From Sipunculus nudus (taxonomy: Eukaryota; Annelida; Sipuncula; Golfingiida; Sipunculidae): a DNA stretch of 64,000 bases. The notes below the pieces were generated by a model. It saw only the letters and a list, made by a program, of their open reading frames with translations, had not been told where the DNA came from and did no database searches. Made by a program: the position numbers and the translations under genes. Below are positions 10,530-41,035 of this stretch, in pieces. Numbering within the stretch: the stretch's first letter is position 1; every line of letters starts with the position of its first letter. The stretch is from NCBI GenBank assembly GCA_026874595.1, contig CM049313.1, positions 53,840,659-53,904,658 of the forward strand. The letters run 5' to 3'.

Positions 10530-11889
10530 TAGTTTGACAAGCAGGTGCCCTATTGGGTGTCCTTCTGTCAGTGACACAGGGATGATTGGTACCTACGAGG
10601 GTTCCAGACCTATTGAATTACAGACCTGTCTAAATTCCAATATGGCTGCCTCAGTCCGATCGCTGATTTTCTTTCGCGCACGATAACTCAAGAACAACAT
10701 ACTGCAGCTTTCCCAAATTCACAGGGATGATTGGTACCTATGAGGGCTCTAGACCTATTGAATTACAGACTTGTTGGAATTCCAATATGGCCGCCACAGC
10801 CTAATTGCTGATTTTCTTTCGCTCACGATAACTCAAAAACAACATACTGCAGCTTTCCCAAATTCACAGGGATGATTGGTACCTACGAGGGTTCCAGACC
10901 TATTGAATTACAGACCTGTCTGAATTCCAATATGGCTGTCTCAGTCCGATCGCTGATTTTCTTTCACGCACAATAACTCAACAACAACATACTGCAGCTT
11001 TCCCAAATTCACAGGGATGATTGGTACCTATGAGGGCTCTAGACCTATGGAATTACAGACTTGTTGGAATTCCAATATGGCCACCACAGCCTAATTGCTG
11101 ATTTTCTTTCGCTCACGATAACTCAAAAACAACATACTACAGCTTTCCCAAATTCACAGGGATGATTGGTACCTACGAGGGTTCCAGACCTATTGAATTA
11201 CAGACCTGTCTGAATTCCAATATGGCTGTCTCAGTCCGATCGCTGATTTTCTTTCACGCACAATAACTCAAAAACAACATACTGCAGCTTTCCCAAATTC
11301 ACAGGGATGATTGGTACCTATGAGGGCTCTAGACCTATGGAATTACAGACTTGTTGGAATTCCAATATGGCCGCCACAGCCTAATTGCTGATTTTCTTTC
11401 ACTCGCTATAACTCAACAACAACCTACTGCAGCTTTCCCAAATTCACAGGGATGATTGGTACCTATAAGGGATCCAGACCTGTTGAATTACAGACCTGTT
11501 GGAATTCCAATATGGCAGCCACAGCCAGATGACTGATTTTCTTTCGCACACAATAACTTAACAACAACCTACTGCAGCTTTCCCAATTTCACAGGGATCA
11601 TTGGTGCCGATGAGGGCTCCAGACCTATTGAATTACAGACTGGCACAAAAATCAAATATGGATAACAGATTACATATGGTAAAATTATATTTATTTCACA
11701 TTATTTCAAACATATCTTCTTTAATATTATTTGATCCAGTAGGATTTTTTCTTTCATGCATATGGATAAAAACCTGTTTCTGTTAGTCATATTTTTTAAA
11801 TTAAACTTAATTTTTCGCCCATATGTAAACTAGTCCAGCCCTTGCAGAAACGCGGGGCCCTCTGAGGACCATTGTCCGACCAGATCTAA
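10530..11889 (+). mobile_element. HL-F copy 1: element built of about 145-bp tandem cores
   Basis: The head (TTGACAAGC ... near 10532) is followed by TCCTTCTGTCAGTGACAC and then about eight tandem units of about 145 bp starting near 10576, 10721, 10865, 11011, 11155, 11300, 11445 and 11590. Each contains CACAGGGATGATTGGTACCT, a TTGAATTACAGACCTGT motif, CAATATGGC and ATACTGCAGCTTTCCCAAAT. Odd and even units differ (CGAGGGTTCC versus TGAGGGCTCT), so a 290-bp dimer was amplified. The 3' end has a GGCCCTCTGAGGACC hairpin and a tail ending CTAA at 11886-11889 before TTTT. A second copy lies at 50833-52408 in the same orientation. The exact 5' boundary is uncertain. Confidence 0.7.
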
Positions 11890-15627: not shown

Positions 15628-15720
15628 TAGCTCAGCTGACTGTAAGTCAATTGAGCTATAGGATAGTGATAGGTCAGCATCCGTCAGTCTGTCTGTCTGT
15701 TAATTCTTACCTGCTAAGTC
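15628..15720 (+). mobile_element. HL-A head (5' end only)
   Basis: TAGCTCAGCTGACTGTAAGT and its partner strand form the family hairpin and are followed by a GTCTGTCTGTCTGTTA tract. The usual cores do not follow. A matching 3' end lies at 19091-19120, so either a 3.5-kb element with an unrelated body or two separate remnants are present. Confidence 0.55.
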
Positions 15721-18700
15721 GGGCAGCTAGTTGATAAGTCACCTGCCCAAATATATCAGTCACCTGCCTGAAATTACTCATTAGGGTATTAATTCCTGAA
15801 CATTTGTTTAGATCATAACGTGTTGATTTAACATAAATGACCCATTGTCCCTGGTAATGGTATAAAATCATTTTAGATGGTGGTACAGTAAATTCATGCA
15901 GTGTTTTCATTGTGGTTTTTGGGTTTTGTGTAGCATTCACTGTCTTGGGTATTACATATTTTATATTCTGGTATATAGATAACACCCAGGTCTGCTATGA
16001 TGTTAATAAATCTTTGCTTGTGACAGTAGCCCCAGATCCTGGATGTATACATGTTACATTGTGTATATCTGATAATGTGATAGAACCAGTGGGATGTCCT
16101 GTTGACCCAGCTGTATGTGACCATCACTGACTGCTGGCTTTATCCTGTGGTTTCTGTCCAGCCATCATGACCAGCTGTGAATTGTTAAAGATCTGCTGTC
16201 GTCAGTTTAATGGTGCTTAATGGGGCACATAAATTAATTAGAAAGCTCCATTTGTTTAACTTAAAGTGGCCTGGTTTCCAGTGTTAGCCAGGAAAGGAAA
16301 GGAGTTTATAATTTCACTGGTCTATAGAAACCTGTCACTAAAATATTCCACCAAAGACCCCTGGAGGGAAGAGTCTAAGGATGCTTCAGGATCATACATG
16401 TGCTGTTTATCCTAAACCAAAATCATGGACTTGTAAACAAGCTGATAGCAGTATCTGTTTGCACAAATTGCATAAGAACTCAAGCTAATTTACATGATCA
16501 CAGCAGATGTTGTGCCCACTAGCTTTTGCAGGCTCTTTTATTTAAAAAATATAAACACAAACATAAGATCTGTACTTTCTTTATAATCCACTACTGATAT
16601 AATAATCCTATTGTGGTTTCTGTGAGATAAAACATGTTCTTTAAAGGTAATTCTGTGTCAGAATTAGGTAAATGGTTTAGAAAATATTCACTGACCATAT
16701 GGGTGAAATTGCTGTGAATGTATATAAAACAAAAAATATATATATCAATGAAAGCTTGTTGAGTTTGTCTTGACCTATTGTCTGGTTTCGTTTAGCACAG
16801 AAATTGTATTGTCAAAAAGCCAAAATATAATTTCAGATTTAGTATTTAGAACATTTTAATGTAAAATTTAAGTGGTCATAAATAGAGCTGTACAGAATCA
16901 TTTTTCACAGCCCAGTACATGTATACTGCCATACTGCCCTCCTGGTACTACCCTCAAGCATGATATGATATATAAAGTGTGTATGAAAATTCAACATTCA
17001 GAGCTAGTTATTTTCTTCCTTGTTCTTTGAAAGATGTCCTAATCCACTCACATAAATAATTTCAAATAATAACATTTATCTTCAAATGGCCAATCAGATG
17101 CAGAGACACTTGTTTTTGACAATACATTTTGAAATGAACATCTAATATGCTCTTGATTAAAAATAAAATACTAAATACCAGAAATCCCTTTCAGTTGGGT
17201 GATCCAGTATCATCCATAGGGTCCGTTGAACTGATTCATGAAACAACATGGCAATAAGCGAATCAGATTGTGAGCCTTTTTGCCATATATAATTGACAGC
17301 AAGAGATAAATAACCCTACTGCATGATGATTAATCCATATTATACATAATTTGCTTTAAAAATTGGTTCAGAACCAATGTTACAGCTTTTAGATACATAA
17401 TATTAGATAAAGTATGGTTTTATATTTATTATTTGCTATTTCTATATACTCATTTAGCTAAAACAGGCATTTTAACCGATTTGCTTACTGACAAGATAGC
17501 AGTCGTCTATTATTTCTTCTCAAATTTCTTGCACAGACTGAAGAATGGGGTGAGTTCAAATGTTTGTTTCAGTCATAATCATCCATTATTGATACTAGAT
17601 CCACTTGACAATTTTTATCAGTGTGATTTTTTTTACTATATCCCAATATATTGGTACATCATTGTACCTTTACATCCCTTCTTGTTAGTGGTAATTTGTT
17701 ATAATTTGCTCTTGTCTGCTTTTTATGTATGCTGTGTGGTGTTTACTGTTGAAATTGTCAGACACTTGTCACTGATTAGTCGGCAGTTTTCTTCTCACTG
17801 ATTAAACCATACAAAGGAATTAATAAATTCCAGAGATGGCTCCTGACATTTATCAGGTAGTTGGTTTGGTAATCCCGGACCAACAAATTTATACTCTGAT
17901 GTAGGACTCTTGTCCATACTTGAGTCTGGACTGGAAAGCACTTTTATATTTATAGGGACTTTGACTTACACTTGGACTTAAGGGTTCTGGACCTGTACAC
18001 AGACTTTGAGGTAAAGACTTAAGAAATTATGCCGAGCCCATCATGATTCCAGTAGAAGGAAAGCTCCTTCACATACTCTAATGACATTTAAGTACATGTG
18101 CATAAAAACTACTAACTGGATATTACAGAAAAAGACTATAAAAAAGCTCTACATCAGAATCTGAATGTAATTCAACATTCAAGAATGTGTAAATGAACAT
18201 TAAAATGCACATGATGATCTCAAATTTCCATTTAAAATATATTTTAATTAGGATTTTACCAGCTTTAGGGTCTAGTGTAACTAGAAGCGGGGAGATTGTG
18301 ATTTCAAATATCAGCCAAGATTGTGATTTCAAATATCAGCCGAGATTGTGAGTTCAAATATCAGCCGAGATGGTTAGACTTTTCAAGATCAACCCCCACC
18401 CAGGATGAACACTCTGCAGGCTTAATGGGAAGGCCATGCTAATGTTTCCATCACTGAGGAGTGTGCCTTTCAGGGGTTCCTCAGTGTAATGGCCCAGCAG
18501 AGGGAATGCCTTCACACCCATGGCCTGTAGGTGCAGCAGTCATACATAACACCAGGATATAATAAAGAGCAAGTATGTGCTACCGCCCTGTCACAGAGTC
18601 AAAAACAGGAATGGAATTCTGCAGATGTACATACCTAGTTAAGTTAGCATTTAATGGAGGCGGTTATATTTTTTTTTACTGTCTCAGGTTCCAGATGATT

Positions 18701-19090
18701 TAGACTCAAAGGTGGACTTTGACTTTAACCTTTTGGACTCAGATTCACATGGTGTGAACTCCACTACATCACTGGCCTCCTGAAATTAATTTACACTTTA
18801 GAACTATATAAGCACTGGATCAGCTGCCAGCCTCATAACTACCATATACTGGATGCAAGGATCCCAGTGGCATGCAATAAATTTGGCCATTGAGACAAAC
18901 ATGTCACTAACTATACTGTATCAGTAGCAGCAGGTGCAGAGGAACATAATTTGAGCTTGGATTTATTTGTAGTTAATTTGTAACACTGAAAGAAAACCTA
19001 TAAAGTCTGGAGAATAATAGAAAACTAAGAGAATTATGATCTACCAAATGAGGATAAACCATGTATAGAACATAAGTGGCCAAGGTTTCC
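15721..19090. other. Non-coding DNA between HL-A head and tail
   Basis: No gene supported. A 122-codon plus-strand ORF at 17433-17801 is hydrophobic and Phe/Tyr/Leu-rich, as AT-rich DNA tends to give; I do not recognise it. Three tandem 25-bp units lie at 18292-18369. Confidence 0.4.
18292..18369 (+). repeat. 25-bp tandem repeat, three units
   Basis: The unit is built on GATTGTGATTTCAAATATCA followed by GCC(A/G)A. Units two and three differ from the first by single bases. Confidence 0.8.
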
Positions 19091-19120
19091 AGCTAAGCAT
19101 CCTGACCTATGGGTCACTTG
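19091..19120 (+). mobile_element. HL-A 3' end remnant
   Basis: AGCTAAGCATCCTGACC, then TATGGGTCACTTG, followed by TTT. It matches the HL-A terminus (GCTGAGCGTCATGACCCATG then GGTCACTTG) with mutations in the palindrome. Confidence 0.6.
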
Positions 19121-20237
19121 TTTAAATTTTAAAGGACTTGTTTGTCAGTTGTAGGACCTTCTCCACCACTGAAAATGGGGGATAAGTTGTCATTTTGGCT
19201 GTAGTTGTCATTTTGGCCAGAATATTGGAAATTGAGTGTATATGATGCATGAGTATGGTCATGGACACTACACAGGGACAGTGAGCGTTGAGATGTTAAA
19301 TATTGATGCTGTGGCCCTGTCACACTCACTGACAGTCCCCATGGGATTCTGTGTGTGTGTTTGCAGATCAATGCAAAGTGATTGAGCCACCTTCCTGTTA
19401 TATAGCACTGGACTCAATGAGTAACCTATAATTGCAGTGGGGCCAGAATTTATTAAGCTTGTAGTGTCATGTAGAATACCCAAGGTATCCTCAATTAACA
19501 GGTAGTTTGTCCCCAAAGCCTTCCTAGGGCATTAGTCTAGATCAGTGTCTCCATGGAAAATTTGTTCTTTCCTCTGGGCCTAGTTGGCTGGAGCCCAACT
19601 GGATGTGGGTAATTCAGAAGTGTTATAATTGGCTGTGTCCACTGAGATGTGCCCCAGCAGGACATTGTTATTCTGTGAATACAGTTACCTGCTTTCACTA
19701 AAATATCAGTGGTTCAGAGAGACGTATATAGAAGACTAGTCTTACTGTCTGGAGTTTATTGAGTCTGCATGGAGCCTGGCTGTGTACTGTGCACTGTAAA
19801 CAGGTGTTTAATTATCCAGTCTATTGTAAAATATATGGTTGAGAGTATTTGAACAGACCTTTCATTAGGCACACTTCGTAATAATTCTGTTTGATTATTG
19901 GTCTAATGCTTGTGGCTTACACCAACACTGGCAAAAGTGTCACACTGCCTGCATCATCAATAATGTATGTGAAATAAGTGTTTTGACCTTTTTCAGGGGT
20001 ACAATATTTATACCGGTACCATGCAGTTTTAAATTAAATCATTCAGAATGCCATTTAGGACAATTAAAGTCAGCCGTCTGTGACCAGCAACCATTTATAC
20101 AGCTGAAAAGGATAATAAACCCTATGATGGGATTAGTTTGAAAAGAACTCTTCATTCTATCCTGGTACTAAGGACTACATTTGTACATGTTATTATACAG
20201 GTAATTAAATTTAAATGCTAGGTTTATGATCAAGAGA
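19121..20237. other. Non-coding DNA, no gene seen
   Basis: No coding, RNA or repeat structure that I can support. Confidence 0.45.
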
Positions 20238-20691
20238 GTTACTCCTGGATAAATCATTAAAGTTAAAACCAGTCCTGACTGTCATTGTGTGAAGTAACTC
20301 ACTTACTCCTGGATAAATCATTAACAATTAAACCAGCCCTGGTTGTCATTGTGTGGAGTAACTCAGTTACTCCTGGATAAATCATTAACGATTAAACCAG
20401 TCCTGACTGTCAGTGTGTGAAGTGACTCAGTTACTCCTGGATAATTCATTAACGTTTAAACCAGTCCTGACTGTCAGTGTGTGAAGTGACTCAGTTACTC
20501 CTTGATAAATCATTAACGATTAAACCAGTCCTGAATTGTCATTGTGTGAAGTCACTCAGTTATTTCTGGATAAACAATTTAAGATTAAACAAGTCCTGAC
20601 TGTCATTTTGTGAATTAACTCGGTTACTCATGGATAAACCATTAAAGATCAAACCAGTCCTGACTGTCATTGTGTGAAGGATTACACATTT
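20238..20691 (+). repeat. 64-bp minisatellite, about seven units
   Basis: Units begin GTTACTCCTGGATAAATCAT near 20239, 20303, 20367, 20431, 20495, 20559 and 20622. They continue with AAACCAGTCCTGACTGTCA and TGTGTGAAGTGACTCA. The last two units are the most diverged, as expected at an array edge. Confidence 0.9.
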
Positions 20692-20984: not shown

Positions 20985-21502
20985 TGTAGGTGGCGCCACC
21001 TGCCACAAAATCCAGAAAGCTATCCAAGATGTATAAACCTGCCAAGTTTTAGGCAGAAAAGTCAAGCCACTGCCATGATATGAGTGATTTTATCCCACGG
21101 CAGACAAACAGACGGACGCTGTGCAAAATTGGTTGCAGGTGGCACAACTAGTTTTCATGAAATTATCTATACACTCTGACCTTTCCTCTCTGCCCAGAGT
21201 TCAGATATTAGCCTGATTTTTGCTATGTGGGCAAATTAAGACTAGTTACAGATCAAGTTTGTGTTTTGTCCTGGTTGACCTATTTTTGACTGCACCTGAA
21301 CATAGGAAAATTTCATGTAAAATTAGAAATTTTCCAGACAAATGCACATTTTTTGCCATGGTTGCAGCTATTGGCCTGATTTTTGGTGTGTGGTAGCAAA
21401 ATGACAGTGGCAGATTGAATTTGCATTTTATCCTGCTTTACCTACTTTTGACAGTATGACAGCTCCTGAACATACAAAATGTTACAAACTTTAACAAATT
21501 TT
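20985..21502. mobile_element. Chimeric fragments: HL-B-like (minus) and left part of outermost HL-C
   Basis: 20985-21150 reads on the minus strand like an HL-B core (AGGTGGCGCCACCT, TGAGTGATTTTA). From about 21200 the plus strand matches HL-C cores (GGCCTGATTTTTGGTGTGTG, GTTGACCTA then TTTTTGAC). It ends at ACAAACTTTAACAAATTTT, directly abutting the head of the 21503 HL-A. The matching right part, with the HL-C 3' end, lies at 29822-29870. No HL-C head was found upstream, so this outermost copy has lost its 5' end. Confidence 0.65.
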
Positions 21503-24394
21503 TAGCTCAGCTGACTCTAAGTCATCTGAGCTATAGCGATCACTCTTTGTCCGTCGTCCATCCGGCCATCCGTCCGTCTGTCCGTTAACAAGGCACAAAT
21601 TGTAACCGCTGGACCTGGAATCTTCTTACTTTACATCCAGAGAGGTCCATGAAAAATCTCCTAGGAAACCTGGAATCAGGTCTCTGTTACCCATATCCTT
21701 CGAGCTATGGGGCCCCAAAGTACCCACCAGAATAGTGAAAAAATTTCATACAAAAACTTCAATATCTTATTAACTCATCACTGATGGTCATGATTTTTGG
21801 CATACATATTGATCATTAGATGTTTCATCAGTTTCTGCAGATTGGTGACGCCACCTGTATTTTTCAAATTTTTACAATCTTTTTCTCTATTTTTGAGACC
21901 TTTAAGGATGTAGTTATCTGTCAACAGGGTTCAAATTGTAACGACTGGACCTAGAATCTTCATTCTTAACACAGGGAGACCCATGAAAAGTCTCCATAAA
22001 AGCCAGAAATTAGGTCTCTGTTACCCATATCCTTCAACTGAAGTTCGAGCTATGGGGCCCAAAAGTACCCCCCAGAATAGTAAAAAATTTCATAAAAAAA
22101 CTTCAGTATCTCATTAACGACATCACTGATGGTCATGATTTTTGGCATACATTTTGATCATGAGAAGTTTCATCAGTTTTTTCAGACTGGTGGCGCCAAC
22201 TGTATTTTTCAATTTTTTACGAATTGTTTTCTCTATTTTTGAGACCTTTAAGGATGTAGTTATCTGTCAACAGGGTTCAAATTGTAACGACTGGACCTAG
22301 AATCTTCATTCTTGACATAAAGGGAGACCCATGAAGGGTCTCCATGGAAACCTAAAATTAGGTCTCTGTAACCCATATCCTTTGAGCTGTGGCACTCCAA
22401 CAGCTCAGAATAATGGAAAATTTGATACAAAAGCTAATGTATCTGAATTAACAACTAATGCAGAGATCACAATAATTGTTTGTATGGATATTGATCATGG
22501 AGTGTTTCATCAGTTTCTGCAGCCTGGGTGCACCACCTCTATTTTTAGCTCAGCTGACTCTAAGTCATCTGAGCTATAGTCGTGGTCCATTGTCCGTCGT
22601 CCGTCCGTCTGTCCGTCCGTCCGTCCGTCCGTCCGTAGATGTGGCACGTTTTGAAACCGTAAGACCTAGGAATCCAAAATTCAGCATAATGTTAGATATC
22701 CCCAAGATCTCCTACCAAACCGAAAACTGGGTCTTTGTGACTTCGTTCCTTTGAGAAATTAAGGAAAAACCTCAATTTTTTATTAAAATCCTATTTTCAC
22801 ACTTCAGGACTGCCTAATATCAAAACCACTCATCTGTTTTTCCTCATATTTACCATAAATAATCCTCTATATAGTTCCTATGTACATGCCAGAAATTGGG
22901 TCTGTATTATATAATTTAAAAAAGTTATGGGCCCAAACATAATGCATTTTGTAAATAATCAGAAAAAAAATTTGATCACTTAACACAAAACTTGTTAAAG
23001 CTAAGCACTTTTTTTCCAGAAATATAACTTTTATTAATCAAAATTAAATTGTATACCCAAAATTTGATCAAAATCTTTAAAATTTTTTAAAATATTAGCA
23101 AAAATAAAAAATTGGTACCTTAAACTGTGCCCAACTTTGACCATGGCACGTTTTTTTCCTGTAACTGCTGTGGATTTAATTTTCAAAGCATGTTTTTGTT
23201 AGCATTTCAACTGTAAACATTTAAAATTTGAAACCAGTTGATCAAAAACTGTAGATTTAATTCAAGTTTTCAAGCACCATGTCACATATTGTTTACATCA
23301 ACCTAGTGTTATGCAGTTTGCTAGAGCTCAGCTCCCCAGCTTCAGCTCTAAGTTCCTTAAATTAGGCATACAGTAAGATGTCTCCAAAATCCCCTACCAT
23401 GCCAAGAATTTGGTCACCAGAACTTAATTCCTTCGAGATATTAATGAAAAACTTCATTTTTTCATTAAAAACCCTTTGTTACACATCAGGACTGCCTAAA
23501 CCTATCAAAACCACTGATCTGACTTTGATCATATATAATATACATATTTTTCTATACATTCGCTATGCACATGCCAGAAATGATGTCAGTATTGCTTAAT
23601 TGTTTTAAGTTATGTGCACAAACAAAATTGACTTTGTAAAAAATCAGGAAAAATATTTACTCAGGTTACATGAAAATTATTGAAGCTAGAGAATTTTTTT
23701 CAAGTATATAACTTTGTTTAATTAAGATTCAATTGTATACCCAAAATTAGATCTGTATTTTGTAAATTTTATAAGGTATTAGCATAAACATAAAATCAAT
23801 ACCTGAAATTTTACCCAACTTTGACCATGGCAAATTTTTTTCCTGTGAGTACTGTTGATTTAATTTTCTCAGAATGTAAACATAAGTATTTAATGTGTTT
23901 AAATCTGAAATTTGAAACTAAAAGGTTGAAAATTAGGCTAGTTATTAAATTTTATCTTGAGGCTCTATTGTAGTCACTTGCTTTGTTCCAGATGCAGGTA
24001 GGCCACTCCAGGTCACTGGAAGTCAGCTATGCCAGGGTTCCTGATTTGTTTCAGTCACTGGGGGAGATCCCCTGCTGTGACAGGTGTACAATTGTTCTCA
24101 TATCACACCCCCTCCCCCCCCCCCCCCCATGAATATATAAATATACATTTGTATGCATGATGTGGTGTTACATGACAAGATTGAGATTTATGATGATGCA
24201 ATTTAGAATTATGAATCAACGTTTATATTCAGAAATATATGTTATATTGGAAATGTATACAAATAAAACTTAAAATAAAAAAATGAGGATCTAATACAAA
24301 CATGTGTTCATTATTTTCGAGCCTCAGCAGAATTGGAGATCAGGCTTTGCTTGCCCTGAATGTTTATGCAAAAGTGTTGTTAATCCCATCTCTT

Positions 24395-24423
<29 letters not shown>
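24395..24423 (+). repeat. Poly-C tract of about 29 bases
   Basis: Uninterrupted C run inside HL-A'; shorter runs lie at about 24115-24128, 24957-24971 and 26111-26125. The tract length in the assembly is probably unreliable. Confidence 0.9.
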
Positions 24424-24425
<2 letters not shown>

Positions 24426-25526
24426 CTGTCATTGATCCTTAGCACCTCACCGTCACCTGTGCACTGGGACATTAGTTATTATTGCAAATGTGTACAATTT
24501 TTTCATTTTGAAAGATAATTCGATTAGAAAACGTTTAAGATCTAATATTGAAACATATTCTTGCCCCAGGAGAATGGAACATAAAGTGATCAGCTCTTGT
24601 CTGTCCATCATCTCTCAATTATCATTAAATATATATACTAATTATGAAATGTTTCCTTTAAGCACTGTTGAAATAACTTTCAAATGCTGTATGTGTATGG
24701 ATTTAAGCCATTAAAGTCTGAAATTTGAAAGCAATTTCTGTATTCAGATGTGTAATATTGCAGATGAAAAACTTTAAAATATTAAAATATATTATCAGCT
24801 TTGTTTGTCTAACAGTCTGTCTGTCCTTTTTTAAATATTATGTAATTGTGAATGAACTATTTAATCCTGTAAGTATTGTTGAATTAAGTGGAAATCCTAT
24901 ATGTATATACACTATGTTAATACAGAGATGTTGTAACTCCCATCATTCCAGCCCTCCCCCCCCCCCCCCCCAAACCACCACCACCAGGTTCTTGCATCTG
25001 GGGACTGGAGACATCAGTTATATTTCAACTGTATACATTTTATAAAATAAAAATACATATATTTAATAATATATATTATGTAAAATAAATCAAATTGAGC
25101 AAATGTGTAAACTACTGAACTGTCAACAAATTATCAAAAAGCCAGCCAATGATCATGGTAATAATATGCATCTTATGTTCACAAACTGCTCACATGCTTC
25201 AATTTTGACATTAGAGAATGCATGGTTTGGTCACAAAATATTATTTGCAACAATTTCTCACTCATCAATACAAACCAATCATGTCAACCAGCCATGGCAT
25301 ATATTACCTTTTCCTCTCAGACTTGATCTCCATTATTATTTGAGATTTTTACTTTCAAGGTCAACTTCAGCTGAGCACAGTGACCCATATTTATAGCACC
25401 ATGTCTTGAATGTTTACATCAAGTCATTGGTTAACAGTGTTCCAGGCTGTTACATAACACCTTCACTCCTTGCCTACTGCTTCTGTGAGTGTCTGGGTCA
25501 GGCTGGGTCAGGCAGTAATTACCAGA

Positions 25527-25625
25527 GAGCCTTTCTCCTCTCTCTCTTTCCCTTTCTCTCTTTCTAGCTCTCTTTTTCTCTCTCTCTTTCTCTCTCTCTC
25601 ACCCCTATGCCTCCCTTCCTCCCTC
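25527..25625 (+). repeat. CT-rich low-complexity tract
   Basis: Polypyrimidine sequence of TCTC and TTTC repeats within HL-A'. The leucine/serine-rich ORF across it is an artefact of composition. Confidence 0.85.
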
Positions 25626-27434
25626 CACCCCATTCTGTTGACAGGTACTATAAACCTAATTTATTAGATATATATGTTGATGCAATTAAGAAATGTGAAT
25701 CAACTGAAATATTCACATATATATGTTATACTCTAAATGTATAGTTACATTTTCAAACCTGGAAAAAAATGATGTTATAAAAAAAGGAATTTATGTAAAA
25801 ATTGTTCATAATTTCCTGGCTCAAAAGAATGGGAATTAAAATTATTTGCTTTGTTTCTCTAGCTTTCTTGCCTGTTTTAAATATTTAATAATTATGAATA
25901 AACTTTTTTTTCCTGTAAGCTCTGATTAATTAAATTTCATATCCTGTACGTATATGCAAGGGTATTGTAACTCCCACCATCCCCTTCCCCCACCCCACTA
26001 AGTCCTTGCTCCTTCGCACTGTCAACAATAGTGCTATTGCTATAGCATAAAATTTAATAATTTGAAGAAAATATATACAGAGAGACAGAGGCGTTGTAAC
26101 TCCCATCGTAACCCCCCCCCCCCCCTCCATCAAGTCCTTCCGCCTGTGGAGTGGGGATTTTATAGCAACTGTATACATATCATAAAATAGAAAAAAAAAG
26201 TTTAATTAAAGTATAAATTAAAAAAATTGGATCTCATTAGACAAATGTGTAAAATGTTGAACTGTCAACAGCCTGTCAAAAAGGTATCCAATGAAAACGA
26301 AAGGTCAGATCTTAAAATATTATTTGCAACAATTTCTTCAATCATATCAAACAACCATAGCCTAGATTACCTCTTTCTCTCAGACTTTATTTACATTTCA
26401 TAATATTTTAGATTTTAACCGTCCAGGTGTTTAAGTACTGTTGAATGCTCCGTCCCTCAAACTCTATCTCCTTTTCTCTCTACATCCAACCCTCCTTGCT
26501 GCCCACACTGTTTCATTCTCCGAACCCCATCCCAATGTCAGCCTCAGTAAACGAGAAGTTGAATCAGATATATTCATATTTTTATATATTGTATAACTGT
26601 TTGTTTCCTATGTACGTGCCAGAAATTATGTCAATATTGTGTAATATGTAGACGTGGTGGGCATCAATATAATGTACCTAAAAGACCTAAGAGATATCAT
26701 GTCATACAGTCACAATTCATAAATCCACTCTTCAGCATAGTTAATAATAACATTATATATGTCAAATTGAAATCTTGCGGACATCCATACACTATAGATC
26801 CTTCAACAAATAGCCTTATCATCATTCTACCACTGCTTAGTGTTCTGTCATTGCATTCATATTTGCTCAAATATATTGCTATTTTCAACAGCTCCCAAAT
26901 AAATAAAAAATAAACCACTATATTTACTCCATATTAATCCATCAGTCAGGTAATTTCATACATGATTTACTCACATATGACATTATATTCCTTTTTAATA
27001 GCCTAATAGGTCCATGATATTCATAAGGTTTGTCGACTAAATATAGTATCACAATGGTGATACATTAATAGTTCAATCATGATCAGCTGAGCGCCGTGAC
27101 CCATAGGTCCCTTGTTTTTATTTTTCAAGAATTTTTCTCTATTTTTGAGACCTTTAAAAATGTGGACAGCTGTTAACAGGGCGAAAATCATAAAGACTGG
27201 ACCTAGAATCTTCATTCTTTACACACAGGGAGACCCATTAAAAATCCCATGGAAACCTGAAATTAGGTCAATTAAGCTGTATGGCTCCAAAATACCCCCA
27301 GAATAATGAAAAATTTGATACAAAAACTCCAGTATCTCAATAACTACAACACTGATGCTCATGATTTTTGGCATATATATTGATCATGACGTGTTCCATC
27401 AGTTTCAGCAGACTGGGTGCACCACTTCTATTTT

Positions 27435-29297
27435 TATGCCCCCGCCACAAAGTGGCCGGGGCATATAGTTTTACCCATGTCCGTCCTTCCGTCCTTCCGA
27501 AATCAAACAGTTGTACGGACTTTTTTTCGCAATGCCTGCAGATATTGGCCTGATTTTTGGTGTGTTGGCAGATATAGACCAGTTACAGATCGAGTTCGTG
27601 TTTCGTCCCTGTTGACCTACTTTTGACCGTTTTACGGCTCCTAAACTTAGAAAATTTCATGAAAAATTGAAATATTCATGACAGATACACATGTACGGAC
27701 TTTTTTTCGCAATGCCTGCAGATATCGGCCTGATTTTTGGTGTGTGAGCAGATATAGACCAGTTACAGATCGAGTTCGCGTTTCGTCCTGGTTGACCTAC
27801 TTTTGACCGTTTTACGGCTCCTAAACTTAGAAAATTTCATGAAAAATAGAAATTTTCATGACAAATACACATGTACGGACTTTTTTTCGCAATGCCTGCA
27901 GATATTGGCCTAATTTTTGGTGTGTGGGCAGATAATGACCAGTTACAGATAGAGTTCGCGTTTCGTCCCGGTTGACCTACTTTTGACCGTTTTACGGCTC
28001 CTAAACTTAGAAAAATTCATGAAAAATAGAAATTTTCATGACAAATACACATGTACGGACTTTTTTTCGCAATGGCTGCAGATATTGGCCTGATTTTTGG
28101 TGTGTAGGCAGATAATGACCAGTTACAGATCGAGTTCGTGTTTCGTCCCGGTTGACCTACTTTTGACTGTTTTACGGCTCCTAAACTTAGAAAAATTCAT
28201 GAAAAATAGAAATTTTCATGACAAATACACATGTACAGCCATTTTTAGCCCTCAGCTCATAGGCTGATGGGCTATTGTCGTCACCCAAGCTGTCCATCTG
28301 TCCATCTGTCTGTCCGTCCGTTCGTCCGTTCCGCGTCTGTTAACTTTTACCTTGTGAGCAGGATATCTCTAAAAGGATTCATCGTTGGAATTTTATTTCA
28401 GCAGTGAAGATGTATATCGATAAAAACTCGGTCAAGTTCGAAGATTGGTGACCTTGACCCATTTTTCTACATTTTAGAGCTGATTATAGAAAAACACTCA
28501 GAAGTATATATCTCAGGAACCATTGTGTGGATTTTCACAAAACTTACTATGATCATTGGGACTGATGGTCTGTATGTGCTGCACAATTTTGGTGGCGCCA
28601 CCTGCAATTTCTGATTTTTTAATGAAATTTTATCGGATTTTTTCAATTTTGGCCTTTTGTGCAGGATATCTCCAAAGGTATTCAACACAGGAACTTCATT
28701 TCTTCAGTCCTATTGCATTATATTAACAAAATCTTGGTCAAGTTCAAAGATGGGTGATCTTGACCTATTTTTCAAGGTCACAGAGCTTTTTTATAGAAAA
28801 AAACTTAGGAGCTTATTTCTCAGGAAGCATTTGGTGGATTGTTATGAAACATGGTATATACCTCTCCAATTTAAATTTATAAATGATTATCAACTTTTGC
28901 TAATATTCTAGTTTCGCAATGCAATGCTTACAGATACTGGCCTAATGTTTGGTCTGTAGGCGCATAATGACCACTTACAGATCCAGTTCGCGTTTCGTCC
29001 CAGTTAACCTATTTTTCACCATATGACAGATCCTGAACATAGAAAATTTCATGAAAGACAGAAATTTTCATGAAAAATGCACATATATGGACTTTTTTTC
29101 ACAATGCTTGCAGATACTGGCCTGATTTTTGGTGTGTTGCTTGATAATGACCCTTTACAGATCGAGTTTGCATTTTGCCCTTGTTGACCTACTTTTGACC
29201 ATACAACACTTCCTGAACTTAAAAAAATTTACAAAATTTAACAAATGTTTCTAATTTGCCCCAGGCGGGGGCATTCGTGTCGTTCCGACACATCTAG
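27435..29297 (+). mobile_element. HL-C: CTAG-ending Helitron-like element nested in HL-A
   Basis: The head T-ATGCCCCCGCCAC AAA GTGGCCGGGGCATA is a strong hairpin, followed by GTCCGTCCTTCCGTCC. Four and a fraction cores of 180 bp (near 27512, 27693, 27872, 28052) each contain GTACGGACTTTTTTTCGCAA, GGCCTGATTTTTGGTGTG and ACCTACTTTTGACCGTTTTA. The fifth core is split by HL-D. The 3' end has GGCGGGGGCAT (inverse of the head), hairpin GTGTCG TTC CGACAC, and tail ATCTAG at 29297. T runs flank both ends. The unoccupied HL-A core at about 45854-45872 shows the target as a single T run between CCACCTCTA and CAAATTTTTACG. Confidence 0.85.
28246..28911 (+). mobile_element. HL-D: CTAG-ending element nested in an HL-C core
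   Basis: Head TAGCCCTCAGC TCATAG GCTGATGGGCTA is a hairpin, then GTCCATCTGTCCATCTGTCT-type microsatellite. The body has two diverged cores (GTGAGCAGGATATCTC / GTGCAGGATATCTCCAAA; TTGGTGGCGCCACCTGC). The 3' end is degenerate but finishes ATTCTAG at 28911. A better 3' end of the same family (GCTGAGGGCTTTTGTCAGC ... TTATTCTAG) is at 60340-60376. Left T run (four, not counting the element's own T) plus right T run (three) equals the seven Ts of intact neighbouring cores, so the insertion added no target duplication. Confidence 0.8.
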
Positions 29298-29821
29298 TTT
29301 TTCAAATTTTTACGAATTATCTTCTCTATTTTGGAGACCTTTAAAGATGTGGTTATCTGTCAACAGGGTACAAATTTTAACAACTGGATCTAGAATCTTC
29401 ATTCTTGTCATGCAATGAGGCCCATGAAAAGTGTCTGTGGAAACTTGAAATTAGGTCTCTGTTACCAATATCCTTCAAGCTATAGGACTCCAAAGTATCC
29501 CTCAGAATAATGGAAAATTTGAAACAAAAGCTGAAGTATCTGAACAATTAATCCAGAGACCACCATGCTTCTTTTCATAGATATTGACCATTAAGTGTTT
29601 TTATTAGTTTCTGCAGACTAATGGAGCCACCTGTATTTTTTTTAAAGTTTACGCATTTTTTCTCTATTTTTGAGATATATTAAAACAGACACATTCTCAG
29701 CCTGTTGGTTAATCTATTTGATGCTTCAGTTCAATGCTTATATACTACCATTCAGATAATAAAATTTCCTTTTGCAAATCTCTTCCCAGTCAGCTGAGCG
29801 TCATGACCCATGGGTCACTTG

Positions 29822-29870
29822 TTTTAATTTGCTCCAGGCATGGGCATTCTGGTAGTTCCGACACATCTAG
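29822..29870 (+). mobile_element. Right part and 3' end of the outermost HL-C
   Basis: TTTTAATTTGCTCCAGGCAT then GGGCATTCTGGTAGTTCCGA and CACATCTAG, followed by TTTT. It aligns with the intact HL-C 3' end at 29250-29297. It continues the HL-C fragment that stops at 21502, so the whole 21503-29821 HL-A was inserted in a T run of this copy. Confidence 0.75.
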
Positions 29871-31910: not shown

Positions 31911-34816
31911 TGTATCCGCCAAAATGAAGTTTTGCGGATACTATGTTTTTGACGGGGTTCCGCCGCCGCCGCATTCGTTTCCAGAGAACTCCTCTGAGAC
32001 TACTGGACGGATTTTCCGAAACTTACACAAATTATCGGGTCACATGTGAACTGGTGCCTAACCAAGTGGCCTTGACCTCTGACCTTTCCTCTCTGCCCAG
32101 CATCTGTTTGTGCATCTGTTTCCACACATAAACCCACATATCTCAGGAACCGTTTGACCGATCAGGAAATTTTTTTTACACAAATGTAGCCCTTGGATAG
32201 CTTTACAACATACACAAAAAAGGTGGCGCCACCTGCAACCATGTTTGCACAGTGTCCATCTGTTCATCTGCCTTGGGTTAAAATCACTCATATCTCTGCA
32301 GTTGTTTGGCTAATTACCTAAAATTCGGCATGCATATACATCCTAGATAGCATTTTACACAAATGTAGCCCTTGGATAGCTTTATAACATACACAAAAAT
32401 GGTGGCGCCACCTGCAGCCATTTTTGCACAGCGTCCTTCTGTTTGTATGCCTTGGGTTAAAATCACTCATATCTCTGCAGTGGTTTGACCAAATTACCTG
32501 AAATTCGGCATGAGTATACATCCCGCATAGCTTTCTTGATTTTATGACAGGTGGCGCCACCTATTTTCACGTTCACACTGCAGACATTAATGCTTATATG
32601 TCTGGAACCGTTTGACCAATCAGGAAAAAAAATTTACACAAATATAGCCCTTGGATAGCTTTATAATGTACACAAAAATGATGGTGCCACCTGCAGCAAT
32701 TTTTGCACAGGGTTCATCTGTTTGTTTGCCTTGGGTTAAAAGGACTCATCTCTGCAGTGGTTAGACTTTTCCACCTGAAATTTTGCATGTGTATACATCT
32801 TGGATAGTTTCTCGTTCAAATAACAGGTGGCGCCACCTACAATAATGTTTACGTTGCACAGATCCATTCTAATATGTAACACATGTACCGTAAAATCTGT
32901 GAAATTTCGTACAGAAAAAAAAAATTTAATTTGTGGAAGTCCGAAATTTAACAGTCGATTTCAGCAGTTTTAAAATTATGGTCGTGACAACTTAAGATGC
33001 CTCGTCGGCAGTGAGATAATAGGAGCCTCAAGTATTCACTCGCCGATTTTGCATTCATCCGTGTGAACCATGAAGTTTCATGAATAAAAACATTATTTTC
33101 TATACTTGTGTTGTTTATTTTATATTAAAATCAGTTTGGAAAGGAATCTGAAAAGTATATATGAAGGATTTAATCCTGTCATGAAGCTCGACACCCGTAC
33201 ATGCTTTCGTGACATCCGGGGCTTTGCCCGGAGAGATCGTTTTTCAGGTGGCTTACGCATGGAAATCCCCACTAACGGTGCACAAAAAGCAAGAGGTCTT
33301 TAGATCACTTAAAGAGTTAATCGATCCTGATTATCCAATATCAAATATCCAACCTCTGTTAAACTTCATGAACGTCTGCCAGCGCTTTGATGTACGTACC
33401 GTTTGACCTCGTGTGACCTTGTTTGTTGGGCGATACGGAGCCCGGGTACTCGAAACTGAGTCATTCTTGTGTGACATTTAAGATATTTATTGTAAATGTT
33501 TTAATGGAAATTAGCATTAATTTCAAACTGATTAACATTGGCATTACATACACATCGGAGCGCTGAGTTTGCTTGAAACAGACCAATTTGGCTTACACAT
33601 GGAAATCCCCCTTTACGGTGCACGTAAAGCTAGTTGTCTTCAGATCATTTACGGAGTAAATCCTGATTATCCAATATCCTATTTCCAACCTCCGTCAAAC
33701 TTCTTGGACGTCTGCCAGTTGTTCACGGCGCGTCGCTCGCATCCCGGACAATAAAGCAACTCACATTCGAGATATTTTAAGTTTTTTTTATTGTCGCTGG
33801 AAACAAAAATCTTAGTTTTCAGTCAAATTACATTCTATATGATGTAGATATAATTCATATAACTGCATTAAATGCGCCGGTATTCAGGACCCTGGATACC
33901 GCCGCATAAAAAGCTTCAGAGTAAACTGGCGAACTTCAAACCCTTGGCGGAAAAAAAAATTGTGTAAAATAAAATAGTACGTTTATGACAAGGAAACTTT
34001 AAGTAATCTAAGGGAGATATAGTACTTTATTCGAATGACCAAGAAATTCAGCTAAATATTATGTTTTAGTATGTAAACAAGACTCACTTTTAAAACTTTG
34101 CAACGCTGCACTTGAAACTTTCTCAGAATCTGAAACAATGAACTGTGTGACCTTTGCTCGCTGAGCCAACACGGCCCATTACTACTGGTTACACAGGCGG
34201 CTGCCGGCCAGAGCAGACATCGTTCCCCGTGTATCACCGTTTATTAGGATAATACATATTCTTCTAATCAACATTTAAAGTGGACAAACACTGTCTAAGT
34301 GGTATGTTATATGCGTATTTGATAAGAATATCTTTATTTCTTAACGAATACGACATTTTAAGACGAAATATAAGAATTTAATTGTCATGTGGAATGTCTC
34401 CAGTTTCCTCAAGTCATCTTCTAGGGCTCTCGCACAGCGTAGCATAGTAAGAGAGGACGGGTGCTAGGGCTATAATTCATATTAATTATCAATAGCATGG
34501 CATTCGCATCGATCGGACCGGTAGGCTTGTTCAAAACCTGATAATAGGGTGAGGTTACGTCAGTGTTACATTCACGGCAGTCTTGCTAATGCCTAATATG
34601 GCGTAACAGACCATCGGCAGTTCGAAATTTAACATGTCATTTTAATAATTATGATTACTGAAGAAAGACCGTGTAGGAAATTCATCGAGGTACGAAATTT
34701 CACAGATTTTACGGTAACTCTATTTCCCCTTGCCACTCAAACCATGCCTCACTTCATCCGTCCTACTCTGATTTTGGCGGATACACGTAGTCGCTTGTTG
34801 ACTACCCGTATTCTAG
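31911..34816 (+). mobile_element. HL-B copy 1, interrupted by a TA-flanked element
   Basis: Head T-GTATCCGCCAAAAT GAAG TTTTGCGGATAC is a hairpin followed by TATGTTTTTGACGG and a CCGCCGCCG tract. Cores of about 270-280 bp carry AAATCACTCATATCTCTGCA, GGTGGCGCCACCT, TAGCCCTTGGATAGCTTTA and TTTTTGCACAG. Near the 3' end stand TTTTGGCGGATAC (inverse of the head), hairpin GTAGTC GCTTGTT GACTAC and an 11-base tail CCGTATTCTAG ending at 34816. The left flank ends in TT and the right flank begins with TT. Positions 32888-34714 are a later insertion. The short ORFs within are repeat translations. Confidence 0.85.
32888..34714. mobile_element. 1.8-kb terminal-inverted-repeat element with TA target duplication
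   Basis: The first 25 bases (32888-32912, starting CCGTAAAATCTGTG) and last 25 (34690-34714) are perfect inverted repeats. TA precedes the left end (32886-32887) and follows the right (34715-34716). The unoccupied HL-B copy at about 36590-36615 reads AACACATGTAACTCTATTTC, showing one TA where the filled site has two. A TA duplication is typical of Tc1/mariner and a few other cut-and-paste groups. The interior is richer in CpG than the surroundings and holds two diverged copies of a segment of about 160 bp (near 33245-33400 and 33588-33735, sharing ATGGAAATCCCC and CTGATTATCCAATATC). No transposase ORF is visible, so it is non-autonomous; the superfamily is not certain. Confidence 0.88.
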
Positions 34817-35369
34817 TTATCGAATCCTGTGTCGGTAGTCTTGAGGACCAACCCTTCACCACACTGTAATTTCACATATTTTTTATAGGCTCTTTAGTTC
34901 TGGTGTAAAAAAAAGGGTAACAGAATGACTATTTATAAACATAACTTGGGTTGAAATGTATGACTTACTGGTTTCCAGAGGAATTTATTTTTGTTGATGG
35001 AAATTCAAAATGCCTGACCCTATTCCTGACTAGGAATGTAAAATGTTCGGTAGTATTCCTTATCTGTGGCGGGAAATCAGCGGCGCTGGTCATTTTCCCA
35101 CTTACATCAAATACTTCCAGTACGTGGTATAAAGCAAAATTCACTTTTTCTCTTTTTGATTCTGAAAGAAAATCATTTCGATTATCCAAAATTTTCAATT
35201 GAAAGATATGATAAAAAATAAACTGCTTCTGGTTATCGTCTGACCCTATCTCTCTTCTGTTGACCAGCATATATTTTGATCTCCATACCTCGAAATCCAT
35301 TAACACTTGTTTTATCAAAGATGCAGTAAGAAAAGTGCTAGAAATGTTTATAACTTGGATATAAATAAT
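34817..35369. other. Spacer between two HL-B copies
   Basis: Unique-looking sequence of about 550 bp. A 138-codon minus-strand ORF covers 34965-35381; I see no known motif in it, but it is long for a spacer of this size and its coding status is open. Confidence 0.4.
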
Positions 35370-36703
35370 TGTATCTGCCAAAACGAAATTTTGCGGACCC
35401 TATGTTTTTTTACCGGGTTCCGCCGCCGCCGGGTTCGTTTCCGGAGAACTCCTCTGAGACTACTAGACGGATTTTTCCGAAACTTACACAAATTATCGGG
35501 TCACATGTGAACTGGTGCCTAACCAAGTGACCTTGACCTCTGACCTGTCCTCTCTGCCCAGCGTCCGTTTGTGCATCTGTTTCCACACATAATCTCACAT
35601 ATCTCGGGAACCGTTATAAAATCACTCATATCTCTGCAGTGATTGACCAAATTACCTGAAATTCGGCAAACGTATACACCCCACATAGCTTTCTTGATTT
35701 TATGACAGGTGGCGCCACCTACATTCATGTTCACGCTGCAGACATTAATGCTTATATCTCCAGACGCGTTTGACCAATCAGGAAAAAAAATGTACACAAA
35801 TGTAGCCCTTGGATAGCTTAATAACATACACAAAAATGGTGGCGCCACCTGCAGCCATTTTTGCACAGGGTCCATCTGTTTGTCGGCCTTGGGTTAAAAT
35901 CACTCATATCTCTGCAGTGGTTTGATTAATTCACCTTAAATTCGGCATGCCTATACATCCTAGATAGCTTTCTTGATATATGACAGGTGGCGCCACCTAC
36001 CTTCACGTTCATGCTGCAGACATCCAAACTCATATATCAAGAACCGTTCGACTAATCAGGAAAATTTTTTTACACAAATGTAGCCCTTGGATAGCTTTAT
36101 AACATACACAAAAATGGTGCCGCCACCTGCAGCCATTTTCGCACAGCTTCCATCTGTTTGTCTGCCTTGGGTTAAAATCACTCATATCTCTGCAGTGGTT
36201 TGACCGAATTCCCTGAAATTTGGCATGTGTATACATTCTGCATAGCTTTCTTGATTTTATGACAGGTGGGGTCACCTAAATTCACGTTCACGCTGCAGAC
36301 ATTAATGCTTATATCTCCCGACGCGTTTGACCAATCAGGAAAATAATTAACACAAATGTAGCCCTTGGATATCTTTATAACATACACAAAAATGGTGCCG
36401 CCACCTGCAGCCATTTTTGCACAGCATCCATCTGTTTGTCTGCTGTTGGATAAAATCACTCATATATCTGCAGTGGTTTGACTTTTCCAAATGAAATTTT
36501 GCATGTGTATACATCTTGGATAGTTTCTCGTTCAAATAACAGGTGGCGCCACCTACAATCATGTTTATGTGGCAGAGATCCATTCTAATATGTAACACAT
36601 GTAACTCTATTTCCCCTTGCCACTCAAACCATGCCTCACTTCACCCGTCCTTTTCTGATTTTGGCGGATACACGTAGTGGCTTGTCAACTACCCATATTC
36701 TAG
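35370..36703 (+). mobile_element. HL-B copy 2 (uninterrupted)
   Basis: Head GTATCTGCCAAAACG and partner TTTTGCGGACCC (hairpin with mutations), CCGCCGCCG tract, then four cores with AGGTGGCGCCACCT-type palindromes. Subterminal TTTTGGCGGATAC is followed by hairpin GTAGT ... ACTAC and tail CCATATTCTAG ending at 36703. TT stands on both sides. This copy supplies the unoccupied site for the TA-flanked element in copy 1. Confidence 0.85.
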
Positions 36704-39700
36704 TTGATTAATGCCTTCCAGGTGCAGATCCAGGATTTTTTGCAGGGAGGGGTCAAGGGTGTAATGCATAAAAATTGTCTAAAAAGGTCATTGGTTGAGA
36801 GCAGGAGGTGGGGGTCCCGACATCACAAACCCCCCCCCCCCCCCCCCCCCCCCATCATACATAAGATGTGTCTAAAAATAAAAAATTGTTGGTTAAGATT
36901 GGGTAGGGGGGGATTTGCACCTGTCTTCTAGCTCAGAAATACCTGCAAGAACTCATGTCACTCAAATTCTCCCAACTGTCGTGTTTCATGTGATATCCCA
37001 GTTCCCAATTTACCTGGTACGCCAGCCATATGGCTGTCTTTTTTGTGGTTGCCTTGACAAGGGGCCCTGGACTTTGGAACTTTCTCTTGGCACATTCATT
37101 TTTTGACCCTTTATTCTTACATTGTACAGCTAGGATTGTGATGGGCTTTTGCATTTTTTTATGCATAATGGCAAGCAAATTTCTCAGTGCCACTGTGATC
37201 AACTGAAACCGTGTCTAAAAAAATTATTTGTTATAACAGATTTTATCGAAGAAGAGTAAGTATTTAAATGTAACTATAAAAGGGGAAATCAAAGGAAAAA
37301 TTTTTTTTTGAAACTGCCTATTTGATAGTTCTACCAATTCCAAGAGATCTGTCTTCAAATCAGATAAAATAATTTAAATAATGCTAAATGTTTAAATACA
37401 GTTATTTTACTGTAATATTTAAACATATTAATTTTAATTTGGTTTTCATTGTAAGGTTATGTTTTGACACAAGGTTAAGACTCTTAAACCATTAATACAA
37501 GTACAAATTTAAGCTGGTAGCACAATTACCTCATTGATAAAATTCTTGATCACAGGTTACACCGAGTTCCATATGGTTGGGAAAGCATTTATTTTGATGG
37601 GTAATCTGAACACCAGTGACACTGGCAGTGTAAAATGCGGAAAATGCCTGCATTTAAAAAACTGAAAACCCTGAGGGAATGCATTTTCTTTGGAGGAAAT
37701 ATAGTTTCTAAACTTGAATTCCCTCAAGGGAATTAACTTTTTTCAACATTTTGACCCCTTTCATCATAATAATAAATTAGAACTGGTATTTTTATTCTTT
37801 AAGAAACACAACCTCCTCAACAAACAAATTTTCTCACTAGTATTACAAGGTGCATGTTGAAATCTTTAGGTGCAAGTAGGTTTTGTTTCAAGGGTGCACC
37901 TGGAGCATGTAATTTTTTTAGCCTAATTCATGCCCTGATAAGTAAGTTAATACTAGGTTTCCACAGGCAGTAGATTAATTAATATTAGTATAATTACAAG
38001 GTATTGGAGGCTGGTGAGTTTAGTGGCTTATCATGTATTTCTTTCACAAATGATCAGGAGTCAGCCAAGGGTGATTTTTGTGTGCTGATAACTGATGTAA
38101 GAATAGGTTGAACCTTTACAGAAATTGACTCATTGTTAATGTTATCATATGATTTAGTTGACATGTCATTAACTTGCAAAGTTGAGTCCAGTGAGGAGTT
38201 GTAGGTCTGTGGAAATCTGTGAACTTCAAATATTCTTAGATTATGATAGGCTTGATGATGTAAACATATGGAAACCAGGAATCTAGGTTTATGAGTAGCT
38301 TTACAAGATTATAAAATATAAATGTTCTGTCACAGAATATTTTGAGGAGTTAAAGCATCAGTAGAATGCCAGAAATTTCAGTTTATTTCAATGGTGTGGT
38401 TCTCTTGTACTTTGTCTGGTCAGTTATGTACTACAACTGCATGTCATATTTAAGGAATATCTCTGCATATTTTGTACCTCTTTGCATCATTCATTAGCTG
38501 GTTTTGTTATTCTGAAATTTGGTGACTTTGATGTGATGTGGCATCTACATATGATTATGAAAGCATATACCATCTTAACATGTATACAGGTGTATATAAT
38601 ATCAGTAGAAAAATATTCAGTTACACATACCATTCTGTCTGATTAGTGATGTCAGCACATATATATTTAAAAACAGTTTATGTAAGCATGCAGGAACCTG
38701 ACACCTGTATGCTCATACAGTTAATAGCTTCCTTGTCCAGGTGAGTACTCAAGGTTATATCAGTTTCTCACCTGGTCCAGTAAACTGTGACTTCTGACCT
38801 GCTTACCTTTGACCTGGTTCAGTATAAATATATATATAGTAAGGCCTGCACAAGGTATTTTATATAGCAACAACATATATGTATATAAAACTAAAAGCCT
38901 TGATAAAACTTGCATGACATGTTGATATTTCTGTAATAAGATCAGTCCATTGCCTGGAGGTGTTGTACCTGCAGTTTTCAGTTTAAATAATGTTTCTTTC
39001 AACAACAGACCATGCAGTTAGTAGCATGCAGTCACATGTGGTCATCCTCCATACCATCACACCATATATTGGCTTATCAAAGTAGGCTCAGTTTAGACCC
39101 TGCAAAAAATAAGATCATGCATGCTGCTAGAAGTTTCAGCTAGTGCAGTTATGATTAGGTTTTGTGAACTGGACACTACCTTTAAAGCCAAAAGTGTGTT
39201 ACTTGGACATCCTTTTATGTAAGTCAGATCCTCTGACTACATTTGTGAGTTGTATTCAGTATCTCATGTCCCAGAAATTGCAGTAATTTCAGTTCTTATT
39301 AGAATTTTTGCAGGAATGCCAATCATTCATGATTGCCATTGCCTGGATATCATTTATATTGAAAGCTGACATGCATGTGTATGAAATAGCTGTTTTTATA
39401 TGTCTGATGGCTTGTATTTCAAGTGGTATGTCCTTCTGTCCAACAGTTAACCCTTGGTGTTGCAATGATAACTTGCCAGGAATTTAACGCTAGATTTTCA
39501 TGATATAAATTGATTATTAATCTGAAAAGTTTCTCACCAAACTTAAACTCTCACCAAAATCTTATTTAATGAGGTCCGGTCTCCAGACAACTTTGTGGGA
39601 ATCACTCTTATAGCTTAACATTCTGATGTATTTGAGTGAAACCAACTGAATGTTTACCAATGAAGTTCTTTTGCTGCTTGACAAAATCTGTATATACTAA

Positions 39701-40361: not shown

Positions 40362-41035
40362 ATTGGCACTTAACCAGTTGCAAGTCTTACCTGTCATACA
40401 CATGTTGGCACTGTGCCAGCTACAGGTCTTGCCTGTTGCAAATGTTGGCACTGTTCCAGCTGCAAGTCTTGCCTGTCACACATGTTGGCACTGTGCCAGC
40501 ACCAAGTCTTGCCTGTCACACATGTTGGCACTTTGCCAGCTAAAAGTCTTGCCTGTCACACATGTTGGCACTGTGCCAGTTACAAGTCTTGCCTAACACA
40601 CATGTTGGCACTGTGCCAGTTACAAGTCTTGCCTTACACATGTTGGCACTGTGCCAGCTACAAATCTTGCCTAACACACATGTTGGCACTGTGCCAACTA
40701 CAAGACTTGCCTGTTACACATGTTGGCACTGTGCCAGCTACAAATCTTGCCTTACACACATGTTGGCACTGTGCTGCTACAGATCTGGCCTGTCACACGT
40801 TGGCACTGTACTAGCTACAAGTCTTGCCTGTTACACATGTTGGCACTGTGCCAGCTACAACTCTTGCCTGTTACACATGTTGCCACTGTGCCAGCTACAA
40901 GTCCTGCCTGTTACACATGTTGGCACTGTGCCAGCTAAAACTGTATCAGCTACAAGTCTTGCCTTTCTCACATGTTGCCACTGTGCCAGATACAAGTCGT
41001 GCCTGTTACATATGTAGGCACTTTGCACAATGCCT
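40362..41035 (+). repeat. 40-bp minisatellite, about 17 units
   Basis: The consensus unit is built from ACATGTTGGCACTGTGCCAG then CTACAAGTCTTGCCTGTCAC, repeating about every 40 bp from roughly 40362 to 41035, with one longer unit near 40930-40965 and decayed units to about 41100. Each unit contains TTGGCACTGTGCCAG, matching the NFI consensus TTGGC(N5)GCCAA in all but the last base. The overlapping Leu/Cys/His-rich ORFs of 60-150 codons in several frames are a consequence of the period (40 is not a multiple of 3) and are not genes. Confidence 0.92.

Follow-up and report, generated by a model that had tools for sequence, protein, structure and literature searches.

A nest of transposons is commonly taken for a record of time, in which each inner element arrived after the one that holds it. 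For rolling-circle elements that reading can fail, since guest and host may travel together. A locus of Sipunculus nudus (positions 21196-29870 of the window, a 64,000-nucleotide stretch at C8:53840659-53904658 of a 1.43 Gb genome) raises the question of which reading applies, as hairpin-headed elements lie there four deep. We consider it very probable that this is a nest of non-autonomous Helentrons (HINEs), formed by separate insertions into T-runs and by the composites HL-C[HL-D] and HL-A[HL-B], with the order of events given below and with read-through, which we infer, as the source of the composites. The locus also offers a concrete, testable case for the origin of elements with two satellite-like cores.

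Parts of the nest

The outermost element is a truncated HL-C copy without a 5′ head and, like every part described here, it lies on the + strand. Its 5′-truncated left piece (21196-21502) aligns to 28931-29249, and its right piece (29826-29870), which has a degraded 3′ subterminal repeat and palindrome and a CTAG end, keeps register and is 86.8% identical to 29249-29301. Between the two stands HL-A, in three pieces. The first (21503-22545) holds a hairpin head that folds (z -3.8), a GTCC-like microsatellite and units 1-3, of which unit 3 is broken. It is followed by a complete HL-A' of 4.57 kb (22546-27114) with an HL-A-type head, a GTCC microsatellite (array at 22592-22636) and a tail ending in CCCTTG. 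The second piece of HL-A (27115-27434) is most of unit 4, whose best match is unit 5 of a second HL-A copy beginning at 44154 (91.0%). Next come the left piece of the inner HL-C (27435-28245), with a folding hairpin head (z -4.7) and four 180-bp units at ~95%; its probable passenger HL-D (28246-28911), with head intact and CTAG kept; and the right piece of the same HL-C (28912-29297), with two diverged units, a 3′ subterminal repeat, a palindrome and CTAG. The third piece of HL-A (29298-29821) supplies the rest of unit 4, unit 5 and a tail made up of the subterminal repeat AGTCAGCTGAGC, the palindrome TGACCCATGGGTCA and CTTG, and matches 45867-46209 at 92.1% and 47381-47564 at 90.3%.

Comparison of the window with itself placed all junctions where the earlier note had put them, to within the ambiguity of the T-runs, inside which the exact cut and any all-T duplication are indistinguishable. 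The breaks do fall in T-runs, of 3-5 T, and the host sequences do resume in register beyond them. The three pieces of HL-A are collinear with the 44154 copy (87.5% over 1,866 columns, that copy's own insert being left out of the alignment). This yardstick consists of a part before HL-B (44154-46208) and a tail (47382-47564), both +; HL-B (~46209-47381, +) sits in its last unit, so 44154-47562 is not the intact HL-A for which it had been taken. The nest HL-A has one repeat unit fewer: its five units best match units 1, 3, 4, 5 and 6 of the six in the 44154 copy, in the same order, and that order is kept across both breaks, which lie inside units 3 and 4. The two pieces of the outer HL-C are continuous when set against the inner HL-C and against the copies L013 and L011, within a few bases of the T-run. 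The inner HL-C resumes in register past HL-D, and the HL-C of L013, which lacks HL-D, is an empty site for it, with 640 of 748 columns identical. Because HL-A is collinear, the outer HL-C runs on and L013 provides an empty site, the host pieces were formerly contiguous and the nest is real.

Anatomy of the elements

HINEs rely in trans on a rolling-circle replicase for their movement and insert at T-runs. The elements of the nest have the anatomy of this class. They carry subterminal inverted repeats of 11-12 bp at both ends: twelve bases from near the start of HL-A recur inverted near its 3′ end (GCTCAGCTGACT / AGTCAGCTGAGC), as do eleven in HL-C (ATGCCCCCGCC / GGCGGGGGCAT). By eye, the repeat has one mismatch in HL-B and is gone from the HL-D of the nest. 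Folded as single-stranded DNA, all five hairpin heads beat shuffled controls (z -3.8 to -6.5). A head scan of the window, which missed four heads known from alignment (6708, 28246, 46209 and 57479), gave 10 rows, standing for five distinct heads, on the + strand and none on the - strand, and no head appeared in six one-strand Markov-1 controls. Heads of the HL-A type occur six times in the window, as do the tails, and the + strand carries every one of them (6708-9146, 15628-19123, 44154-47564, 57479-62553 and two in the nest); both strands are used elsewhere in the genome.

The cores are tandem and satellite-like, with units of 336 bp in HL-A, 180 bp in HL-C and 280 bp in HL-B; the same tandem-array scan found no such core in HL-A'. 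Toward the 3′ end a palindrome, perfect in HL-A (TGACCCATGGGTCA) and reading GTGTCGTTCCGACAC in HL-C, stands before CTTG or CTAG and then a T-run. Of five folded tails, only that of HL-C beats its shuffles (z -4.7), those of HL-A (0.07), HL-A' (-0.34), HL-B (-0.78) and HL-D (0.45) being no better than theirs. Over the 38 nt that were compared, HL-A and HL-A' have identical heads, and a single replicase could therefore serve the two.

Inspection by eye showed a run of four T or more at the head of 16 of 20 other HL-A copies (the exceptions are L012, L018, L023 and L028) and of 17 of 20 HL-A' copies (all except L062, L064 and L067). At the HL-B site there are 9 T when filled, against 7-8 T in unfilled relatives, and an all-T duplication would be indistinguishable.

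Canonical Helitrons begin with 5′ TC, end with 3′ CTRR and insert between A and T. That class was considered and rejected: the heads start with AGC or ATGC after a T, not with TC, HL-A ends in CTTG and the target is a T-run. HL-C and HL-D end in CTAG.

No Helentron protein was found in a Pfam scan of 10 of the 98 stop-to-stop frames of the window (at least 75 aa); two of the ten frames matched amino-acid permease, two gave weak matches below the curated cut-off and six gave none. Rfam (at the gathering threshold) and tRNA scans of the window returned nothing.

Composites, late arrivals and the order of events

HL-B in the 44154 copy uses a T-run homologous to that used by HL-A' and the inner HL-C in the nest. 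The whole of this HL-A[HL-B] aligns with L009 (C8:33.4 Mb) as one 3,421-bp block at 95.3% that opens in the T-run ahead of the HL-A head and closes where HL-A ends, and the flanks are different. With two more carriers, L016 (on its other strand) and c5, HL-A[HL-B] was seen at four places in all. Three HL-B carriers were included in a tree of 20 HL-A ends and group there as a single clade (support 100/96), with the proviso that the row used for L009 is not its HL-B-flanking tail; labelling carriers by gap size also caught c8, whose gap is HL-A' rather than HL-B and which is sister to the three true carriers, these making the inner clade. HL-A[HL-B] thus moved as a block with the HL-A ends, and loaded HL-A elements are indeed mobile. 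Because of this, the rule that the inner element is the later arrival at its locus fails as a general one in this genome.

Behind the HL-A[HL-B] block, L009 has an extra HL-A unit and a second HL-A tail (3420-4121), which could reflect either the use of two ends or the joining of two copies. The window has more copies or fragments of HL-B at 31911-32875, 34717-34817 and 35370-36704, two of them with intact-looking 3′ ends.

Among the best 40 of 8,828 loose candidates that were scored, the HL-A/HL-A' query was matched across its whole length in the window and at three other places. HL-A' in these three hosts is 96-98% identical to that of the window over its length; the long HL-A alignments stand at 80-83% and single units at 71-91%, identities that mix different repeat units. 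The breaks lie in T-runs different from the one used in the window, and the insertions into these HL-A hosts are independent. HL-A' is 0.9% from its consensus (24 sequences; the others 0-1.1%) and the nest HL-A 6.0% from its own (21 sequences; the others 1.7-8.5%), and since the consensus copies are the best matches to the nest the two ages are rough, though the gap is wide. HL-A' is a late single arrival, the youngest of the elements dated.

The T-rich block of the 336-bp unit (~positions 276-311) is no more than a suggested hot spot for insertion: the three outside HL-A' cases were retrieved with a query containing the HL-A/HL-A' junction. A further HL-A' in HL-A (c5, ~12961) breaks outside the block, and an HL-A core directly upstream within 500 bp was found at none of 20 other HL-A' copies (the best 20 of 36 remaining places). 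Four of the 20 (L054, L060, L062 and L067) lie directly in another element of these families. In L062 and L067 HL-A' sits inside another HL-A' at the same position (~+238), which could mean either a hot site or an HL-A'[HL-A'] composite.

These results bear on the alternative that survives best, though it is still unlikely, in which an HL-A with HL-C[HL-D], and perhaps HL-A', was built elsewhere and entered the outer HL-C as one block. The mobility of loaded HL-A elements, as HL-A[HL-B] shows it, favours it, but the three other HL-A/HL-A' places among the 40 scored have breakpoints of their own and HL-A' is far younger than its host. HL-C[HL-D] alone is a possible passenger, and HL-A may have come already carrying it.

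The search for HL-C[HL-D] itself used 650 bp spanning the left junction, with 195 bp from the host and 455 bp from the guest. All 40 scored places have the junction: the window itself and 39 others, which are 95-97% identical. Of the matches, 38 start from base 1 and two from base 2, and all run to base 650. The places scored were the best 40 of 4,331 loose candidates, so this count is not the share of HL-C copies with HL-D: the best-fitting rows were scored, and HL-D-free copies would rank lower. L060, found by a separate route, is 93% identical over 719 bp, has the same unusual bases just ahead of the junction, and has an HL-A' inserted in its HL-D. On the evidence of the recurrent left junction, HL-C[HL-D] is best regarded as a multi-copy composite element. 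Because the junction is common to all 39 other scored places and L060, HL-D would have entered HL-C before the inner HL-C reached this locus, and would not be a fresh fourth level here. A comparison by eye with the related tail at 60340-60376 shows that the HL-D of the window no longer has its 3′ subterminal repeat and palindrome, and its tail folds no better than shuffles.

Shared junctions might also arise if one family had inserted independently each time at one hot T-run and no composite had ever moved; HL-A' did land in neighbouring T-runs of HL-A units by separate events. As an account of the locus this is very improbable, since the HL-A[HL-B] alignment is a single block that takes in both host and guest, its carriers are a clade in the tree, and host and guest match jointly across the HL-C/HL-D junction. 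We reject an independent hot-site origin of the shared junctions for HL-C[HL-D] and HL-A[HL-B], and accept it for HL-A' in HL-A.

The reading of the earlier note, in which each level was inserted at this locus and HL-D last, has still less chance of being right. Containment, uninterrupted relatives for each host site and an HL-A' clearly later than HL-A all favour stepwise growth, but it is refuted for HL-D by the left junction at every other scored place and at L060. An assembly error at the junctions is the least credible explanation of all: the region is rich in repeats, but the junctions coincide with element ends, and the left HL-C/HL-D and HL-A[HL-B] junctions recur elsewhere in the assembly.

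Under the preferred reading, of separate T-run insertions plus composites, part of the proposed chronology stands. The succession from outer HL-C to HL-A to HL-A' holds, containment and divergence agreeing; HL-D as the last step does not. Identity between the outer HL-C and three further HL-C copies, one of which covers only ~216 columns, is 77-79%, against 86-88% among those three. Across its left junction the HL-C[HL-D] of the window differs by 3-5% from the 39 others, and because of this divergence its arrival would fall between those of HL-A and HL-A'. The most likely order, as far as the sequences indicate, is that HL-D entered HL-C elsewhere and that this locus then received the outer HL-C, HL-A, HL-C[HL-D] and HL-A'. 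HL-C had been proposed as active both before and after HL-A, which is right for the HL-C clan, with the qualification that the two copies have diverged considerably and that what probably arrived here after HL-A is the HL-C[HL-D] composite.

A possible route to multi-core elements

When a HINE lands in a T-run of the core of another, the host's own 5′ head and 3′ end would still bound a copyable unit, and a rolling-circle copy begun at that head and finished at that end would take in any guest between them. With the terminator of the guest lost or weak (that of HL-D is lost, that of HL-B mismatched), strand peeling may reach the outer end. Such read-through would let a composite with two repeat cores spread, and its repetition could give multi-core composites. 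Against read-through, the tail of the carrier HL-A (z 0.07) is no better folded than that of its guest HL-B (z -0.78), and on the fold data the idea is weak.

We propose tentatively, as a possibility that may well prove wrong, that the satellite-like cores of HINEs serve as landing pads and that loss of guest terminators yields mobile composites, a ratchet toward longer, multi-core elements. If the ratchet is true, HL-C[HL-D] (the 40 scored places and L060) and HL-A[HL-B] (four places) could, just as tentatively, be two of its stages. It would then explain the double-array HINEs of the oyster.

By described anatomy, not by sequence, the elements resemble Cg_HINE of Crassostrea gigas (PMC7492417, as far as the sections consulted describe it), which has a 5′ subterminal repeat with a complementary inverted repeat, a GTCC-type microsatellite, a satellite-like core, a 3′ subterminal repeat with a palindrome and a T-rich target, some copies lying inside other transposable elements. 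Two Cg_HINE elements carry double arrays, for which recombination, a captured junction fragment or multiple "filler" insertions are offered there, undecided (PMC7492417); insertion as a route to double arrays is thus already named in that paper. Unlike what those sections describe, HL-C[HL-D] is a two-core element with a full HINE head at its inner junction and an uninterrupted site elsewhere. Pearl, DTC84 and MgE of bivalves, named in the same paper, are HINE-like with short central arrays, a likeness by description only. In style the repeats of the window look molluscan.

The Helentrons and HINEs of mite and Drosophila share the subterminal repeats and the 3′ palindrome; they insert into T-runs without target change and have paralogous empty sites, according to the parts of PMC4067079 consulted. 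That paper discusses composite transposition in connection with gene capture and with elements that lie side by side, and here it is seen for nested HINEs. Maize (PMC3288121) and Fusarium (PMC5148889) Helitrons likewise show nested rolling-circle elements giving composites that move on, and multi-terminus helitrons of maize reach high copy (PMC3288121). As excerpts of these papers present them, those cases are from a plant and a fungus and have extra ends on one side, unlike the animal HINE here, which lies in the core of another with both outer ends kept. Helitron and Helentron pieces within other elements, and different arrays in one element, also feature in work on satellite DNAs from transposons (PMC12628747); in the portion seen, degraded and shuffled remnants are the source of satellites, whereas here a composite is amplified in many copies. 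A high-copy composite HINE did not turn up in the portions of the literature that we searched.

Downstream of the nest, the + strand has exons of a cation-chloride cotransporter of the SLC12 type. Two of these, at ~53882 and ~63687, were found by Pfam and PDB sequence matches, the best PDB matches being SLC12A2; two more on the + strand, at ~40077 and ~53265, are candidate SLC12-type exons found with sequence patterns. Other tandem arrays of the window lie at 1997-5261 (289 bp units), 10575-11640 and 50917-52184 (145 bp each), 20237-20679 (64 bp) and 40363-40937 (40 bp). At L021 (~1910-6015) an HL-A contains an insert whose ends are inverted (GGGCAATTCCA / TGGAATTGCCC) and which may be a TIR DNA transposon.
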